Of a DNA stretch of 37,158 nt, positions 27,105-36,528 are shown piece after piece (the stretch's first letter is position 1; the number at the start of each line of letters is the position of its first letter). Below the pieces are notes generated by a model. That model was not told where the DNA came from. It saw only the letters and a program-made list of their open reading frames with translations, and did not search any database. The position numbers were made by a program, and so were the translations under genes. The DNA is from a virus, in the IMG/VR virus record IMGVR_UViG_3300049830_000097, positions 1 through 37,158 of that record. One strand, 5' to 3'.

Positions 27105-27166
27105 GACCGCGTCCCCGGCCCATAGATAGCGTAGCCGGGCAGGGGGTGTGAGACACTCGCGAAAAA

Positions 27167-27182
27167 TGTTCCACGTGAAACA
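27167..27182. other. Perfect chromosomal-type parS site beside attP
   Basis: TGTTCCACGTGAAACA is identical to the classical 16-bp parS bound by chromosomal ParB/Spo0J, with the CACGTG centre. It lies in non-coding DNA between the Rz gene and the tRNA-Lys attachment core, 20 bases from the latter. No parA or parB is encoded in the genome, so a host ParB would be needed. The rest of 27105-27202 holds a short GC hairpin (CCCGGC...GCCGGG) and no gene. Confidence 0.8.
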
Positions 27183-27202
27183 GGGACTTGCGAGCACGGC
27201 GC

Positions 27203-27252
27203 GGGGACTCTTAATCTCTTGGTCGTAGGTTCGATCCCTACACGGCCCACCA
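27203..27252 (+). other. attP core: 3' half of tRNA-Lys(CTT)
   Basis: The DNA reads as the 3' half of a tRNA: anticodon loop CTCTTAA (27208-27214, anticodon CTT at 27210-27212), a variable loop, a T-arm with GGTTCGATCCC, the acceptor strand GGCCC, discriminator A and CCA (27250-27252). The 5' half is absent, so it is not a functional tRNA gene. Next to an integrase gene this is the usual attP, which rebuilds the host tRNA-Lys after insertion. Confidence 0.9.
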
Positions 27253-27282
27253 ATTCAAGGACTTAGACGCGGGATGCTCGAA

Positions 27283-27318
27283 AGGTGTCCCCATGTCTCA
27301 CCCCCTCGAGAGACACCT
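27283..27318 (-). terminator. Hairpin at the end of the integrase gene
   Basis: AGGTGTC (27283-27289) and GACACCT (27312-27318) form a seven-base-pair outer stem, with an inner GTCTC/GAGA match. On the minus strand it follows the integrase stop and is trailed by TTTCG. The T-run is short, so it could be a weak terminator. It could also be part of the integrase arm-site region, because GTCTCACCCCCT here is an inverted match of AGGGGGTGTGAGAC at 27141. Confidence 0.45.
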
Positions 27319-28214
27319 CACTTCACCGGCCGCACGGTGAGCCGGCGCGTGTAGCGGCGGGCCATCTGCCCGGCGTGGCCGAGCGTGCCCGGGGCGTCGG
27401 TCTCCGCCTTCGGCCGCAGGTCGCGGAACCGGAACCCCGCGCCAAACCGCCGGAGAGCGCTTTGCAGCCCCCAGGTCGTCCAGGGTAGGCCACGGGCCGA
27501 CGTGAACACGAACTCCCCAGGGCTGCGAGCCAGCGCCGCGTCGACCACCTTGCGGAGCGTAGGCGTCCAGGCGATCAGCCGCAGCTTGCCGGTCTTGCTC
27601 TCGGTGTACTCGATGCCCGCCGCGACCACGTTCGCCCGCTGCCAGGCCATCAGGTCGGTCTGCCGGGCGCCGGTCAGGTAGGCCGTGGCGAGGATCTGGT
27701 AGAGCTGGGGGGGCGCGCGGTCGAGCGCCGGCACCAGCTCGGCGTGCTCGACATACCGGACGGCCGGCTTCTCCCGGTTCCGGCGCACGCCGTAGCAGGG
27801 ATTGCTCTGCAGCCAGCCGCGGCGCATACCGAAGTTGCAGGCCGAGGAGAGCACCGCCCGCTCCCGGTTGCCGGCCGTGCCCGCGCCGGCGCGCCGCCGC
27901 TCCTCGAGGTATTGGGCGACGTGGGTCGGCTTTAGGGCGTCGAGCGGCATGTGGCCGCAGAAGGGGATCAGCCTGGTCACCACCGCCTGGCGGTACTTCG
28001 CGCGCGTGACGGCGCGGATCTCTTCGGTGCCCTCGGCCAGGTAGGCCAGCAGAACACCCGCCATCGTTCGCGGGTTGTCGGCCGTCAGCCGGTAGAAGGC
28101 CTCGAGGAGAGGGATCTCGCCCTCGGAGACTCGGGTGAGCGGGAGCCACTTCCCGCGCCGGACGAGGTAGAAGCGGCCGTGCTTTTCCCGGACGCCCGGC
28201 GGTCGGTATGGCAT
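27318..28214 (-). CDS. int: Tyrosine-family integrase
   Basis: 298 residues, starting MPYRPPGVREKHGRFYLVRR, the usual N-terminus of this phage integrase group. An SAM-like core-binding part (RAVTRAKYRQAVVTRLIPFC) precedes the catalytic domain. That domain has the first arginine in TAYLTGARQTDLMAW, a lysine in ESKTGKLRL, the second arginine box RFRDLR (R264-D-L-R267), His280 in LGHAG and the nucleophile Tyr288 in RRYTRR. The histidine normally at the head of the HxxR box is Arg264, a known tolerated change. It ends 66 bases from the tRNA-Lys attP core. It is the last gene of the leftward operon, and its start lies inside the preceding gene. Confidence 0.93.
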   Translation of the reverse strand: MPYRPPGVREKHGRFYLVRRGKWLPLTRVSEGEIPLLEAFYRLTADNPRTMAGVLLAYLAEGTEEIRAVTRAKYRQAVVTRLIPFCGHMPLDALKPTHVAQYLEERRRAGAGTAGNRERAVLSSACNFGMRRGWLQSNPCYGVRRNREKPAVRYVEHAELVPALDRAPPQLYQILATAYLTGARQTDLMAWQRANVVAAGIEYTESKTGKLRLIAWTPTLRKVVDAALARSPGEFVFTSARGLPWTTWGLQSALRRFGAGFRFRDLRPKAETDAPGTLGHAGQMARRYTRRLTVRPVK

Positions 28215-28399
28215 GCGGAGAAGTCCGGCTCGAGGGTGGAGGACGGCAAGATAGCCCGGTTGAGAGCCTCGAGGGTAGTCCAGGGAGCGCCGTCGGAGCC
28301 GACCCCGAACATGATCCCCTGGGCCTTGAGCCAGCGCCGCACGGCCGCCTTCGACTTGAGGCGCGCGATACCGGCCAGCGTCTGGAAGTCGGCGATCAC
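28085..28399 (-). CDS. DUF4224-like small protein overlapping int
   Basis: 104 residues by the open frame, GTG start overlapping the HNH gene stop (GTGA). The first 50 residues (FQTLAGIARLKSKAAVRRWL, then KAQGIMFGVGSDGAPWTT) resemble DUF4224, a short helix-turn-helix-like domain found directly upstream of phage integrases and possibly an excisionase or integrase partner. The remaining half is Ser/Arg-rich and overlaps the integrase N-terminus for 130 bases in another frame, so that tail may be under little selection. The overlap ties its translation to that of int. Confidence 0.7.
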   Translation of the reverse strand: MIADFQTLAGIARLKSKAAVRRWLKAQGIMFGVGSDGAPWTTLEALNRAILPSSTLEPDFSACHTDRRASGKSTAASTSSGAGSGSRSPESPRARSLSSRPSTG

Positions 28400-28869
28400 G
28401 GATCCCACCGGTTGCCCTTCCGTCGGTTGGTGTCCATGTCGACGATGCGCAGGTTGCAGGCGACGTGCAGCCCGCTGACATTGCGGCCGAGTAGCGGGAC
28501 GATATGGTCGACCTCGTGGCGCCTGCCGGTCGCCAGCGTGAGTCGGCGCGCTTCCGCGTACACCTGGGCGATCGCATCGACGGATGCCCACGACGGCAAA
28601 CGGCGAAGCTTGCGCGCCCGGTGGCGGGTTACGTACTCAAGATTGCGCGCCGCGTAGGTAGGATCCAGCCTCCGCAATTGCTGGCGCCGCGCGTTCGTCA
28701 TGTAATTGCGGGGCGCCTTTAAATAGTCGGCGAACACCTCGGCGGTGCAAATCCATCGCCGCCCGACCTTCGTGCCAGGCGCCTCCCGCGACTTCATCAT
28801 GCGGCGCATGGTGTCGGGATGGCAACCGGCGAGGGCGGCGGCCTCGATCAAGGTGAGCGTCGGCGTCAC
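28396..28869 (-). CDS. HTH-HNH endonuclease-like protein
   Basis: 157 residues, GTG start overlapping the prior stop. Residues about 3-50 form an excisionase/MerR-type winged helix (LIEAAALAGCHPDTMRRMMK; GTKVGRRWICTAEVFADYL). Residues about 115-155 are an HNH nuclease motif: RHEVDHIVPLLGRNVSGLHV with CNLRIVDMDTNRRKGN after it, holding the His of DHI and the Asn residues of CNL and TNRRK. The fusion joins DNA recognition to cutting. It could be an excisionase-linked nuclease, a homing-like nuclease, or an anti-competitor factor. Place next to int suggests involvement in integration or excision control. Catalytic activity is inferred. Confidence 0.8.
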   Translation of the reverse strand: MTPTLTLIEAAALAGCHPDTMRRMMKSREAPGTKVGRRWICTAEVFADYLKAPRNYMTNARRQQLRRLDPTYAARNLEYVTRHRARKLRRLPSWASVDAIAQVYAEARRLTLATGRRHEVDHIVPLLGRNVSGLHVACNLRIVDMDTNRRKGNRWDP

Positions 28870-31453: not shown

Positions 31454-31866
31454 CAGTCCGTCTCCTCTTCGGGCATGTCTAGCACGACGCCGCGCTCGGC
31501 CATGAAGCGCACGATTGCCTCGATGTGATCCGTCATCTCCTGCTTGCTGAGCGACGAGCTGCGGCGCGCTGGCGTGTGACGCTTCTTGCCGAACACGTCG
31601 CGCACATCGCTCCCGAAGCTGCGAATCAGGAAATACTCGTGCAGGTCGTCGCGCTCCCAGCCGGCCATCGCTTCGCCGCCCTTGTCGATGATCTGCTGGT
31701 AGAGCGACCACAGGAGCCTGTTCTGCGCATCGCTGCGCCGCGGCTTGTGCTGCACAATTTCCACCCGCCACGCGCTATCCAATGGCAACGCCGCCAGGTT
31801 GCGCGTGATCTTCGCGAGCAGCTGGTCGCGCGGCATCGCCTTGGGCAGGACGTACTCCTGCGTCAT
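31450..31866 (-). CDS. ninB: NinB-like recombination protein
   Basis: 138 residues, ATG overlapping the bet stop. The strand WRVEIVQHKPRRSDAQNRLL-WSLYQQI with its S-D-x-Q-N-R-x-x-W signature is the hallmark of the NinB family (Orf of lambda), which binds single-stranded DNA and helps load recombinases, standing in for RecFOR. A helix-rich C-terminus contains KQEMTDHIEAIVRFMAERGV, as expected. Length is close to lambda NinB (about 146). Next to bet it should help strand annealing. Confidence 0.87.
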   Translation of the reverse strand: MTQEYVLPKAMPRDQLLAKITRNLAALPLDSAWRVEIVQHKPRRSDAQNRLLWSLYQQIIDKGGEAMAGWERDDLHEYFLIRSFGSDVRDVFGKKRHTPARRSSSLSKQEMTDHIEAIVRFMAERGVVLDMPEEETDW

Positions 31867-32702
31867 TCCTGGCCCTCTGGCCGGAAGTGATTCAGCGTCT
31901 CGCGAAACTTCGCCTTCGAAATGATCTTGTCGGCAGCCAGCTTGTCGAGCACGGCGGTGTAGACCTCGGGGAACTTGTTGAGCTCGTCGGCGATCGCGCG
32001 GATGCCGTCGGCGATCTCGTACTCGTCCTTGTCCTGGTTCATGGTGTCGACCACCTGGCCGACCCACTTACCGATGACGTCGTTCGGCACCTGGCTGGTA
32101 TCTGGGCGCCCTGAGCGATCACCTTGCGGCGTAGTGGCCTCCACGATGCGGCCGGCCTCGTCCTCGTCGAAGATCCCGACGAACCCGAAGGCGAGGCGCG
32201 CGCACTGGATCATGGCCTTGTGGCGAAGCATGCGGCGCGGGTGCGACTTCCAAGGGCCGACGCCGGGACGCGCGACCTCCGCGAAGTATTCGCGCACCTT
32301 GATCGGGTGGCTGCGATCTTTGCGGTACATCACGCACTCGATCCACTCAGGGAGCCCGGAGCCATCGAGCGGCCCGTCGACGAACTCCATACCGTCGAAG
32401 TTCTGGTCGCTGTTGATGATGCGCGACCAGCCGTCGACGCCGACCACCGGCACAATGCCGTTGCGCGTGTCTGGAAAAGCGTAAATCTCTTTCGTGAAGG
32501 GGTTGAGCTGGTACTGGTCGGCCACGACCAGGAGCGCGACCATCTGCTCGTCGGTGACGTTGCCCTTGAAGGCCGTCGCCTTGAGCGTGTCGAGCATCTT
32601 CGCGGGGTCGACGTTGTAGCGGGCGGCGATCTTCTGCAGGATCGACACGCGGCGCGGCGCCTGCATGGGGGCAGGGGCCGCAGTGGCAAGGCTGTTGTTC
32701 AT
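31863..32702 (-). CDS. bet: Bet-like single-strand annealing recombinase
   Basis: 279 residues, ATG overlapping the previous stop. The central block is very close to lambda Bet: QYQLNPFTKEIYAFPDTRNG, IVPVVGVDGWSRIINSDQNF and PRRMLRHKAMIQCARLAFGF. Bet coats single strands and anneals them to a complementary strand, allowing exchange without RecA. The C-terminal region (PEVYTAVLDKLAADKII) is more variable, as in the family, where it contacts host SSB. Length is near lambda Bet (261). The exonuclease partner (lambda Exo or YqaJ type) is not visible anywhere in the genome. Confidence 0.95.
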   Translation of the reverse strand: MNNSLATAAPAPMQAPRRVSILQKIAARYNVDPAKMLDTLKATAFKGNVTDEQMVALLVVADQYQLNPFTKEIYAFPDTRNGIVPVVGVDGWSRIINSDQNFDGMEFVDGPLDGSGLPEWIECVMYRKDRSHPIKVREYFAEVARPGVGPWKSHPRRMLRHKAMIQCARLAFGFVGIFDEDEAGRIVEATTPQGDRSGRPDTSQVPNDVIGKWVGQVVDTMNQDKDEYEIADGIRAIADELNKFPEVYTAVLDKLAADKIISKAKFRETLNHFRPEGQE

Positions 32703-32887
32703 CTCAGGAACCTCTCGGAGTAGGGGTCGCGGTTGCAACGGGATGACGGCGGCGGGAGCGTGCCCGCGCGTCGCTTGTTCTTTCGGTAGGTGTCGGTCAG
32801 TTTGCGCACCACAGCCACCAGCAGCAGGAAGCCGAGCAGCGACACGCAGCCGATCAGGCCAATGCGGTCGAGGTCGTCGGGCTTCAT
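32699..32887 (-). CDS. 62-residue single-span membrane protein upstream of bet
   Basis: 62 residues, ATG overlapping the previous stop (ATGA) and stop overlapping the bet start. The N-terminal half is a membrane helix (IGLIGCVSLLGFLLLVAVV, about residues 9-27), then a basic cytoplasmic-type tail (RKLTDTYRKNKRRAG). The place where lambda encodes Gam holds this protein instead, but it has no likeness to Gam. It is likely an inner-membrane protein with its basic end in the cytoplasm. Function unknown. Confidence 0.65.
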   Translation of the reverse strand: MKPDDLDRIGLIGCVSLLGFLLLVAVVRKLTDTYRKNKRRAGTLPPPSSRCNRDPYSERFLR

Positions 32888-34298: not shown

Positions 34299-34481
34299 TC
34301 AGGGCATCAAGTAGGCGACGTACACGGCTGCCAGTACGAACACTGACACGGCTGCGGTGGGCCACCAGTAGGAGCGCGTCCAGCCGGCGCGCTCGCCGAT
34401 CCACTGGGCGCCTAGGGCGAAGAGGGCGAAGGCCACCGCTAGGCTCACGGGCACGGCCAGGATGAGCAGTAACGTCTTCAC
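34299..34481 (-). CDS. 60-residue two-span membrane protein coupled to repressor
   Basis: 60 residues from a GTG that overlaps the repressor stop (GTGA). Two membrane segments are clear: TLLLILAVPVSLAVAFALFA (about residues 3-22) and WPTAAVSVFVLAAVYVAYLM (about 40-59), joined by a Trp/Arg-rich loop (QWIGERAGWTRSYW). It can only be transcribed with the repressor, so it would be made in the lysogen. Small membrane proteins expressed from prophages often block DNA entry of related phages; that role is inferred here. Confidence 0.68.
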   Translation of the reverse strand: MKTLLLILAVPVSLAVAFALFALGAQWIGERAGWTRSYWWPTAAVSVFVLAAVYVAYLMP

Positions 34482-34906
34482 GTCTCGTCCTGCTCCGCGT
34501 GCGCGGCGTCGCGCTTCTTCGCGCGTACAGCCTCTTCCGAGCTCCATTTCGCGTACCGGTCGCTCGAGGCAGCGGCGAGGGTGGAGATCAGCCCCCGGAT
34601 CTGGAACTGGATGTCCTTGGGAAGGCGCCCGTACTGGCGCAGGAGGTCAAGCCGGGCCTCGCTGATGCCGGCGAGCTCGTCGGTGATCTTCGGCTGCGCA
34701 TGCCCGTGGCCGGTGGCCAGCCATTTCGGGTCAACCCGGCACAGTTCGGCCAGCCTGAATACGTTTTCAGCCTTCATGTTCGCCGAGTCTCCCGACAGCA
34801 GCTTGGAGACCGCCGCGGGGGAGATGTGCAACTCCTTGGCGGCCCGTGCCTGAGAGACCTTGGCGCGCTCCAAGGATTGGCGAATGCGTTCCGAGAGCGT
34901 GCTCAT
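34478..34906 (-). CDS. Short CI-like repressor, no peptidase domain
   Basis: 142 residues from the ATG at 34906, where the chain starts MSTLSERIRQSLERAKVSQA. Residues about 5-65 are a Cro/C1 helix-turn-helix (AAKELHISPAAVSKLLSGDS; VFRLAELCRVDPKWLATGHG). The remaining 75 residues are helical and charged (ISEARLDLLRQYGRLPKDIQ) with no Ser-Lys peptidase signature. LexA/CI-type repressors with self-cleavage usually exceed 200 residues, so RecA-driven cleavage is unlikely for this one. It faces the Cro-like gene across a 75-base region with operator-like repeats. Its own promoter boxes are not clear. Confidence 0.87.
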   Translation of the reverse strand: MSTLSERIRQSLERAKVSQARAAKELHISPAAVSKLLSGDSANMKAENVFRLAELCRVDPKWLATGHGHAQPKITDELAGISEARLDLLRQYGRLPKDIQFQIRGLISTLAAASSDRYAKWSSEEAVRAKKRDAAHAEQDET

Positions 34907-34915
34907 GTGGAGCGA

Positions 34916-34974
34916 GGTTAACTCCCGCATGCGTGAGCACACTTGCATTTGCCCGTTGAGTGCAGTTAATCTCA
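34916..34974 (+). promoter_or_regulatory. Rightward early promoter (pR) and right operators
   Basis: TTGCAT (34943-34948) and TAATCT (34967-34972) are spaced by 18 bases; the same TAATCT serves pL. GGTTAAC (34916-34922) and AGTTAAT (34964-34970) repeat the operator core, and the second is inside the dyad TGAG-N10-CTCA (34957-34974). The start point would fall near 34979, only a few bases before the ATG at 34982. Confidence 0.6.
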
Positions 34975-34981
34975 GCGACAT

Positions 34982-35206
34982 ATGCTGACCAAAGACGCAA
35001 TCGCGCACTTCGACGGCGCTGCCAATGTCGCTCGAGCACTCGACGTTTCCCCGGCCGCAATCTCGAAGTGGGGCTCGATAGTCCCGCTCGAATCGGCCCT
35101 CGCGATCGAGATCATCACGCACCGCAAGCTCCTGGTGGATCGCTCGAAGTATCCACGAATCGCGCACGCGCTCAACGTCGCGGAGTCTTCGCGGGGCGCT
35201 GCATGA
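34982..35206 (+). CDS. cro: Cro-like regulator
   Basis: 74 residues starting MLTKDAIAHFDGAANVARAL. The helix-turn-helix is AANVARALDVSPAAISKWGS with IVPLESALAIEIITHRKLLV after it, the pattern of the small Cro-type regulators that face a CI repressor gene. It should bind the shared operators and push the phage toward lytic growth. No Shine-Dalgarno precedes the ATG, and the pR -10 ends ten bases upstream, so the mRNA would be nearly leaderless. Its stop overlaps the next ATG. Confidence 0.87.
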   Translation: MLTKDAIAHFDGAANVARALDVSPAAISKWGSIVPLESALAIEIITHRKLLVDRSKYPRIAHALNVAESSRGAA

Positions 35207-35588: not shown

Positions 35589-35680
35589 GAACTCTTCGCC
35601 TGCAGTCCCCCGATCAACAGCACAACACGATCGCACCCGTCTGCTTGGTGCGGAATCGAACACGGGGAGGGGTGGCCTGA
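35585..35680 (+). CDS. 31-residue possible peptide before replication gene
   Basis: A 31-residue frame with GTG overlapping the previous stop and its own last base shared with the replication gene ATG (TGATG). The chain is TLRLQSPDQQHNTIAPVCLV followed by RNRTRGGVA. The tight overlaps are in keeping with a leader peptide that couples translation of the replication gene. It could also be an untranslated spacer. Confidence 0.35.
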   Translation: MRTLRLQSPDQQHNTIAPVCLVRNRTRGGVA

Positions 35681-36528
35681 TGCGCGCCCGCAGTCTCAAG
35701 CCTGGCCTGTTCAAGAACGAACTGCTCGGCACATCCGACCCGATCAACACGGTGATCTTCGAGGGCCTCTGGTGCATGGCTGACCGGGCTGGCCGCATCG
35801 AGGACAGGCCTCTGCGGATCCATGCAGAGGTCAACCCGTACCGGCCTAGTGCTAGCACCGTGCAAGCACTGTGCTGGTTAGTGCAGGCCGGATTCGTCAT
35901 CCGCTACGAGGTCGACGGCGTCCAACTGTTGCAGATTTGCAACTTCCTCAAGCACCAGCAGCCGCACATCCGAGAGCCCGCTTCGAAGTTCCCGGGCCCA
36001 CCAGATCAACAAGTTGTAGAAGCACAGGGCAAGGCCAGTGCTGCACACCTACCTAGCACCAACCTAGCCGCTCTGACTCCTGACTCCCCTTTCCCCTTTC
36101 CTGACTGCCTAGCGGGAGAGAGGCGGCTAGCGCCGCCCACCCACGCACCTGGGCCAGAAGGCGACCGGGACACCGGGGCTGCCGCTCCGCTCGAGCTCGT
36201 CAGCCAGCAGCCAGCGAAGCCGAAGACCACCACCCGCGGCACACGCATCCCGCCCGACTTCGCCCTCACGCCCGAACGCCGTGAATTCGCCAGCAGCCTG
36301 AGCCTGCACCCGCTCGAGACCTTCGCGAAGTTCGTGGACTTCTGGCGAGCGAAGGCCGGCGCCGATGCGGTCAAGGTCGACTGGGAGGCCACCTGGCGCA
36401 ACTGGTGCCGCAACGAGACCGCACGTCCGGCGAGGTTCAACGGCGCTCGCCCGCCCGGCGCACCAGCGCGCCGCCTTCGCACTGCCGACGAAATCGAAGC
36501 CGAGGAGCGTGCCCGTGCACTCCAGTGA
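35680..36528 (+). CDS. Lambda O-like replication initiator
   Basis: 282 residues. Residues about 1-95 are a winged-helix part (LKPGLFKNELLGTSDPINTV; QALCWLVQAGFVIRYEVDGV) of the replisome-organiser kind. A Pro/Ser-rich linker (about 105-165) follows, and then a C-terminal helix block (RIPPDFALTPERREFASSLS; FVDFWRAKAGADAVKVDWEA) common to phage replication proteins and known for binding the helicase loader or helicase. The order matches lambda O, with the replication origin expected inside the linker-coding DNA. The ATG at 35680 overlaps the previous stop. The next gene overlaps its last 14 bases. Confidence 0.8.
   Translation: MRARSLKPGLFKNELLGTSDPINTVIFEGLWCMADRAGRIEDRPLRIHAEVNPYRPSASTVQALCWLVQAGFVIRYEVDGVQLLQICNFLKHQQPHIREPASKFPGPPDQQVVEAQGKASAAHLPSTNLAALTPDSPFPFPDCLAGERRLAPPTHAPGPEGDRDTGAAAPLELVSQQPAKPKTTTRGTRIPPDFALTPERREFASSLSLHPLETFAKFVDFWRAKAGADAVKVDWEATWRNWCRNETARPARFNGARPPGAPARRLRTADEIEAEERARALQ
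36053..36130. other. Candidate replication origin: CTAG-rich cluster
   Basis: Four CTAG tetramers, each in a CTAGC context, lie at 36053, 36064, 36109 and 36127, with two more at 35846 and 35852. CTAG is rare in this GC-rich genome. Between the second and third lies a pyrimidine tract (CTCCTGACTCCCCTTTCCCC). The cluster is within the linker-coding part of the O-like gene, where lambda-type phages keep origin iterons. Confidence 0.4.

Follow-up and report, generated by a model that had tools for sequence, protein, structure and literature searches.

What is a perfect copy of the chromosomal parS site doing at the attachment site of a temperate phage? The question is raised by an IMG/VR virus record of 37,158 bases (the window, that is, the whole stretch of DNA analysed), which has a 127-bp direct terminal repeat and therefore represents a circularly complete phage assembly. 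The phage is temperate. It encodes a tyrosine integrase (27318-28214, minus strand; PHROG integrase match of 6e-34 and alignment with related integrases), the start of which is likely to be MPYRPPGV..., judging by the starts in relatives. The other genes include a CI-like repressor (34478-35167, minus strand), a small Cro-like regulator (34982-35206, plus strand), a lambda O-like replication initiator (35680-36528, plus strand), a Bet-like annealing protein (31863-32738, minus strand), a terminase, an endolysin and a head-tail adaptor that is ~56% identical to that of Yersinia phage YeP4. An ORF at 28396-28869 (minus strand) matches both excisionase and endonuclease VII PHROGs, and is possibly a fused or overlapping xis/HNH gene. 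A near-DNA search of the window against 50,697 phage records gave no match.

Layout of the attachment site

The attP of the phage lies within 27105-27317, between the end of the last rightward ORF (27104) and the integrase stop (27318). Its core (27208-27252, plus strand) is the 3' part of tRNA-Lys(CTT), beginning with the anticodon loop CTCTTAA (27208-27214) and ending with the CCA at 27252, and its T-stem pairs at 5/5 positions. An integrase gene thus adjoins a core identical to the 3' part of a tRNA, which is the arrangement of a lambda-type tyrosine-recombinase attP. In one relative, L003, the corresponding place is occupied by a full tRNA-Lys(CTT), and for this reason L003 is taken to represent the integrated state. 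The crossover probably takes place at or near the loop. Two 12-nt sequences, GGGTGTGAGACA in the left arm (27144-27155, plus strand) and TGTCTCACCCCC in the right arm (27294-27305, plus strand), form an inverted repeat that is 92% complementary and may be a pair of arm-type integrase sites. Relatives have CTTAGAC/GTCTAAG-type repeats at the same place.

The parS sequence, TGTTCCACGTGAAACA (27167-27182, plus strand), is located between the putative left arm-type site and the core. It shows no mismatch to the chromosomal parS TGTTNCACGTGNAACA, the site of Spo0J/ParB, and is a near-palindrome that reads TGTTTCACGTGGAACA on the opposite strand. A sequence-only reading of this DNA had noted the classical 16-mer and placed it in non-coding DNA 20 bases from the tRNA-Lys core. 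The identity, the intergenic position and the closeness to the core all hold, but the distance to the loop as measured is 25 bp (linker 27183-27207). It had also held that the phage lacks parB, in agreement with a search of the window for the ParB_N domain (PF02195), which found none encoded. The 16-mer is very probably a genuine ParB-type site, as predicted from its sequence.

A chance match had been called very unlikely, and this is borne out: under Markov models of order 0-3, the four classical parS words are expected to match the window exactly 1-4e-5 times, and the site is conserved in relatives. That the palindrome is either such a coincidence or an intrinsic terminator of the integrase gene, with a minus-strand hairpin leading into T5, is hardly credible. 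The minus strand does read TTTTT (27166-27162) after the palindrome, but a terminator would not conserve the CACGTG in the loop. The terminator was rejected after a scan gave no match and the palindrome hairpin was not the structure of lowest energy predicted for the minus strand (z -0.98); the G+C-rich stem expected before the T run is absent at the palindrome.

A second near-site, TGTTCCCCGTGGAACA at 1027-1042, is one mismatch away from the perfect palindromic parS, and two relatives (G473 and G003) have a similar sequence. It lies inside a RusA-like gene and was rejected as a second parS, the simplest explanation being that it encodes the residues VPRGT.

parS in the attachment sites of related phages

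A search of bacterial genomes with the single integrase protein found nothing. When 369 gammaproteobacterial genomes were searched with an integrase profile, 10 integrases turned up, all of them distant. In viral contigs, a profile of ten related integrases identified 73 relatives. In all, 23 left arms could be scored, from unintegrated relatives with a tRNA-type core beside int and from the window and L006.

A parS within three mismatches is present in 9/23 left arms. Four are perfect (the window, L209, L211 and L212), two have one mismatch (L232 and L006), two have two (L222 and L223) and one has three (L233); the remaining 14 arms are 5 to 8 mismatches away from parS. Dinucleotide-preserving shuffles of the same arms come within three mismatches in 0.1% of cases, so that only about 0.02 arms would be expected among 23. 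None of the 17 right arms is below six mismatches, and the difference between the two sides is significant (9/23 versus 0/17, Fisher p=0.005). In the whole records of the parS-bearing relatives, the attP site is mostly the only one within two mismatches, and parS is therefore a single-copy feature of attP.

The conservation is confined to the site itself. The 25-bp linker of the window is matched in length, and not in sequence, in L040/L212, L024/L211 and L006, and among the four arms with this equal spacing parS is 93% identical compared with 37% for the linker and 39% for the 60 bp upstream. The spacing between parS and the loop is 25 bp in four cases and 35-38 bp in four others, with outliers at 8 and 18 bp, and the two main spacings differ by about one helical turn. 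In L213, the core (a tRNA-Asn-like 3' part) is opposite in orientation to int, and a two-mismatch parS lies 8 bp from the loop. This parS is on the crossover side although int is beyond the core, so that its position tracks the crossover and not the integrase gene.

The deviant sites of the family have either a CATGTG centre (L006) or altered outer bases (L222, L223 and L233). The base changes are partly symmetrical (TGCTCC...GGAGCA; CGTTCC...GGAACG), as is expected for the site of a dimeric protein.

The sequences also indicate a patchy distribution, in which close relatives can be without parS. When mapped on the integrase tree, the parS label requires six gains or losses, of which well-supported branches force at least five, and it differs between sister rows (L233 against L226; L223 against L231 and L234). 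It follows from this patchiness that the intasome can do without parS. The search of related attachment sites proposed in the sequence-only reading thus has a largely positive outcome, with parS present in nine arms, that of the window included, and 14 without it; relatives lacking the site, which that reading would have counted against itself, make up a part of the family. The repeated gain and loss suggests that parS would modulate rather than enable recombination.

parS near the attachment cores of unrelated elements

An exact parS located 20-50 bp 5' of a tRNA T-arm was found in 17 viral contigs, compared with none for a palindrome of equal composition but scrambled sequence. This geometry leaves hardly any room for a complete tRNA, and the real matches are therefore truncated tRNAs, that is, att cores. 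Their T-stems pair at 5/5 positions in 12 contigs and at 4/5 in the rest. A tyrosine integrase is found 2-670 bp from parS in 12/17. Some of the contigs are near-copies of one element, which leaves about a dozen independent cases.

The integrase families beyond that of the window are represented by L026/L028/L031, L029/L038, L030, L033, L034 and L039, and there are about seven with L049, which came from the scan in the opposite order and has parS 3 bp from int. No cross-matches between these families were detected at E 1e-4. The recurrence of parS beside unrelated integrases indicates that its placement near the point of strand exchange arose repeatedly. Taken together with the relatives, the sequences support a real parS-class site at attP, in an arrangement common to related and unrelated phages.

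The same recurrence bears on the possibility that the palindrome is only coincidentally similar to parS and is in fact the target of some other protein, whether a phage excisionase or repressor or a different host factor. The site does occupy the place of accessory-protein sites in lambda-type attP, and some family members retain the palindrome with its outer bases altered. The exact 16-mer, however, recurs at the att cores of unrelated integrases and is the recognition sequence of one widely conserved host protein, whereas a phage-specific factor would not be shared in this way. A coincidental likeness of this kind is distinctly improbable.

The matches L026, L028 and L031 are 15-kb satellite-like elements in which parS lies between the int stop and the tRNA-type core. 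At the DNA level they match Lactobacillaceae plasmids best, in prim-pol regions. Among 33 integrase ORFs of this family at 30 loci in Bacilli (33-45% identity), no tRNA-type core or parS was found downstream, so that the arrangement is not generally conserved among distant relatives of the L026 integrase. In L039 (4776-4793) and L049 (6185-6203), parS is 2-3 bp from the end of the integrase ORF, and the int stop, parS and the att core are nearly contiguous.

Exact parS sequences beside T-arms in sequenced bacterial genomes (30 matches) were dropped as support, the T-stem pairing being chance-like (2/5 in nine, 3/5 in 12, 4/5 in five and 5/5 in four). The opposite order, with the T-arm preceding parS, occurs in 20 contigs. 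It makes a poor side control, since more than half of these are complete phage tRNA genes and not att sites. A complete tRNA-Gly(TCC) gene is followed at ~15-20 bp by an exact parS in nine records (L042-L045, L047, L048, L054, L055 and L058), and L046 has the same arrangement with a tRNA-Gln gene; an integrase was looked for in the records L042-L048, L054, L055 and L058, and none was found. In L189 and L204, which are gammaproteobacterial MAGs, closely spaced parS-like copies flank a GGGGTTCAATCCCC hairpin that mimics a T-arm.

A proposed role of host ParB at the attachment site

A parS so near the crossover suggests that the phage makes use of host ParB when its DNA is integrated, excised or positioned. 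Once loaded at parS, ParB-CTP slides and accumulates, and it interacts with ParA and SMC. The arms of lambda-type attP contain host-protein sites between the arm-type and core sites, and IHF is the DNA-organising accessory protein in the P arm of lambda. From the site itself, its conservation against unrelated flanks, its near-crossover position, its independent recurrence and the lack of a phage ParB, we infer ParB binding and an effect on recombination, which might proceed as follows. The 16-mer would be a candidate site for the host chromosomal ParB (Spo0J), selected for in the left arm of attP between the putative arm-type integrase site and the crossover. After infection or excision, host ParB-CTP clamps would load on the circular phage DNA and become concentrated at attP, sparing the phage the need to encode a factor of its own. 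Linked to the nucleoid by way of ParA and SMC, or acting as a DNA-organising accessory protein, as IHF does in lambda, ParB could then help attP to meet attB or tilt the balance in favour of integration over excision. The segregation machinery of the host would in this manner deliver attP to the nucleoid or gate integration and excision.

It is quite possible, though short of probable, that host ParB loads at attP through such putative binding and has a role coupled to recombination, either in recombination itself or in the delivery of attP to the nucleoid. We also propose, more tentatively, that chromosomal ParB serves phages as an accessory factor, supplied by the host, in their site-specific recombination, and that several unrelated temperate phages and a satellite-like element have for this purpose placed parS independently, only a few helical turns from the point of strand exchange.

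The arrangement can be compared with several known systems. The site resembles the chromosomal parS of ParABS in its identical 16-bp sequence and intergenic position, but it is carried by a mobile element at a recombination site rather than in the origin region, and its binding by ParB is a prediction. Like the IHF and Fis sites of lambda-type attP, it would be a host-protein site in the left arm, between a putative arm-type site and the core; unlike them, it is dispensable on the evolutionary scale. To our knowledge, ParB is not known as an accessory protein of any intasome. Phage P1 and the extrachromosomal mycobacteriophages also have parS on their genomes, but these phages live as plasmids and supply ParA/ParB themselves, whereas in the window an integrase and attP are present and no ParB is encoded. 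SGI1, the parS mimics of which are bound by the ParB of the IncC plasmid (PMC10954446), comes closest as a precedent. SGI1 is likewise an integrative element with parS-like sites and without parAB, relying on a partition system encoded elsewhere, and the window, by the PF02195 search, has its parS-like site without a parB of its own. The differences are that SGI1 mimics the parS of a helper plasmid in two copies, while the window has the parS of the chromosome in one copy at attP, and that SGI1 is an integrative mobilizable island stabilising its replicating excised form, while the window is a phage. No report of a chromosomal parS at a phage attP was found in open-licence PMC full text (preprints excluded), which is weak evidence of absence.

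The repeated occurrence of a host centromere sequence at attP makes two questions directly testable: by what means the attP of an incoming temperate phage reaches attB in the crowded nucleoid, and how phage genomes persist once excised. If the proposed role is true, chromosome segregation (ParB-CTP clamps, SMC) would be linked to lysogeny, and integrative phages would be able to parasitise the chromosome's own centromere system.

Another reading assigns the function to the lysogen, where ParB that spreads or SMC that is loaded from attR would silence or insulate the end of the prophage, or alter chromosome segregation. The geometry agrees with this in placing parS just inside attR, at the opposite end from the intact tRNA gene, which is in line with the earlier expectation that the site would lie at one prophage end. 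ParB spreads from single parS sites. In P. aeruginosa, displaced parS sites change segregation, and there is a 650-kb competence zone (PMC5098823). However, int and parS share one side of the core in some families, and in others int is on the far side; parS is beside int in unrelated families but, once integrated, at the far end in the family of the window, and the gene exposed to ParB spreading is not constant. An ectopic centromere would also be costly outside the origin zone. A role in the lysogen is therefore improbable.

Finally, the host ParABS could partition or position the free phage genome, either infecting or as the excised circle, with the proximity to attP being secondary; the spot would then be merely a free intergenic one, or one safe from packaging and transcription. 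SGI1 offers a precedent: its parS mimics are bound by a ParB that it does not itself encode, and its excised form is stabilised by them (PMC10954446). A survey of viral contigs, many of the records being fragments, found parS words in at least 120 contigs as compared with 26 for the scrambled palindrome, and host DNA inside some viral contigs may be the source of part of this background. An integrase is present in 1/50 parS-bearing phage contigs, and ParB_N in 3/49 records of a mixed set (two over the cut-off). As parS occurs mostly without integrase or ParB, the attP-linked class is a subset of a wider carriage of host-type parS, and the many phage contigs with parS and no integrase suggest a use of host ParB unrelated to recombination, which counts against the recombination role. 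On the other hand, partition has no need for a one-sided, single-copy site 8-38 bp from the crossover, and the phage integrates. An episomal lysogen, as implied by the earlier suggestion of an episomal genome, finds no support: the phage encodes an integrase as well as an excisionase-like ORF, its replication initiator is lambda O-like, and none of its recognised genes is of plasmid type. The earlier ideas that the site might steer the phage to the origin region or disturb the spreading of host ParB are likewise conjectural. Partitioning of free phage DNA is thus a real possibility, though a somewhat unlikely one. A single-copy parS on the crossover side of the core, with two main spacings that differ by about one helical turn, suggests that closeness to strand exchange matters, and a role of ParB in recombination or nucleoid delivery is for this reason favoured over partition.

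Some viral contigs carry parS in arrays of two to five exact copies, mostly within short or no ORFs. A ParB_N search of the array records L072, L088 and L089 found none. These are possibly centromere-like arrays using host ParB; they are located at L089:2657-3444, L141:10535-11462, L154:240-961, L072:5525-5566 and L088:6863-6894.
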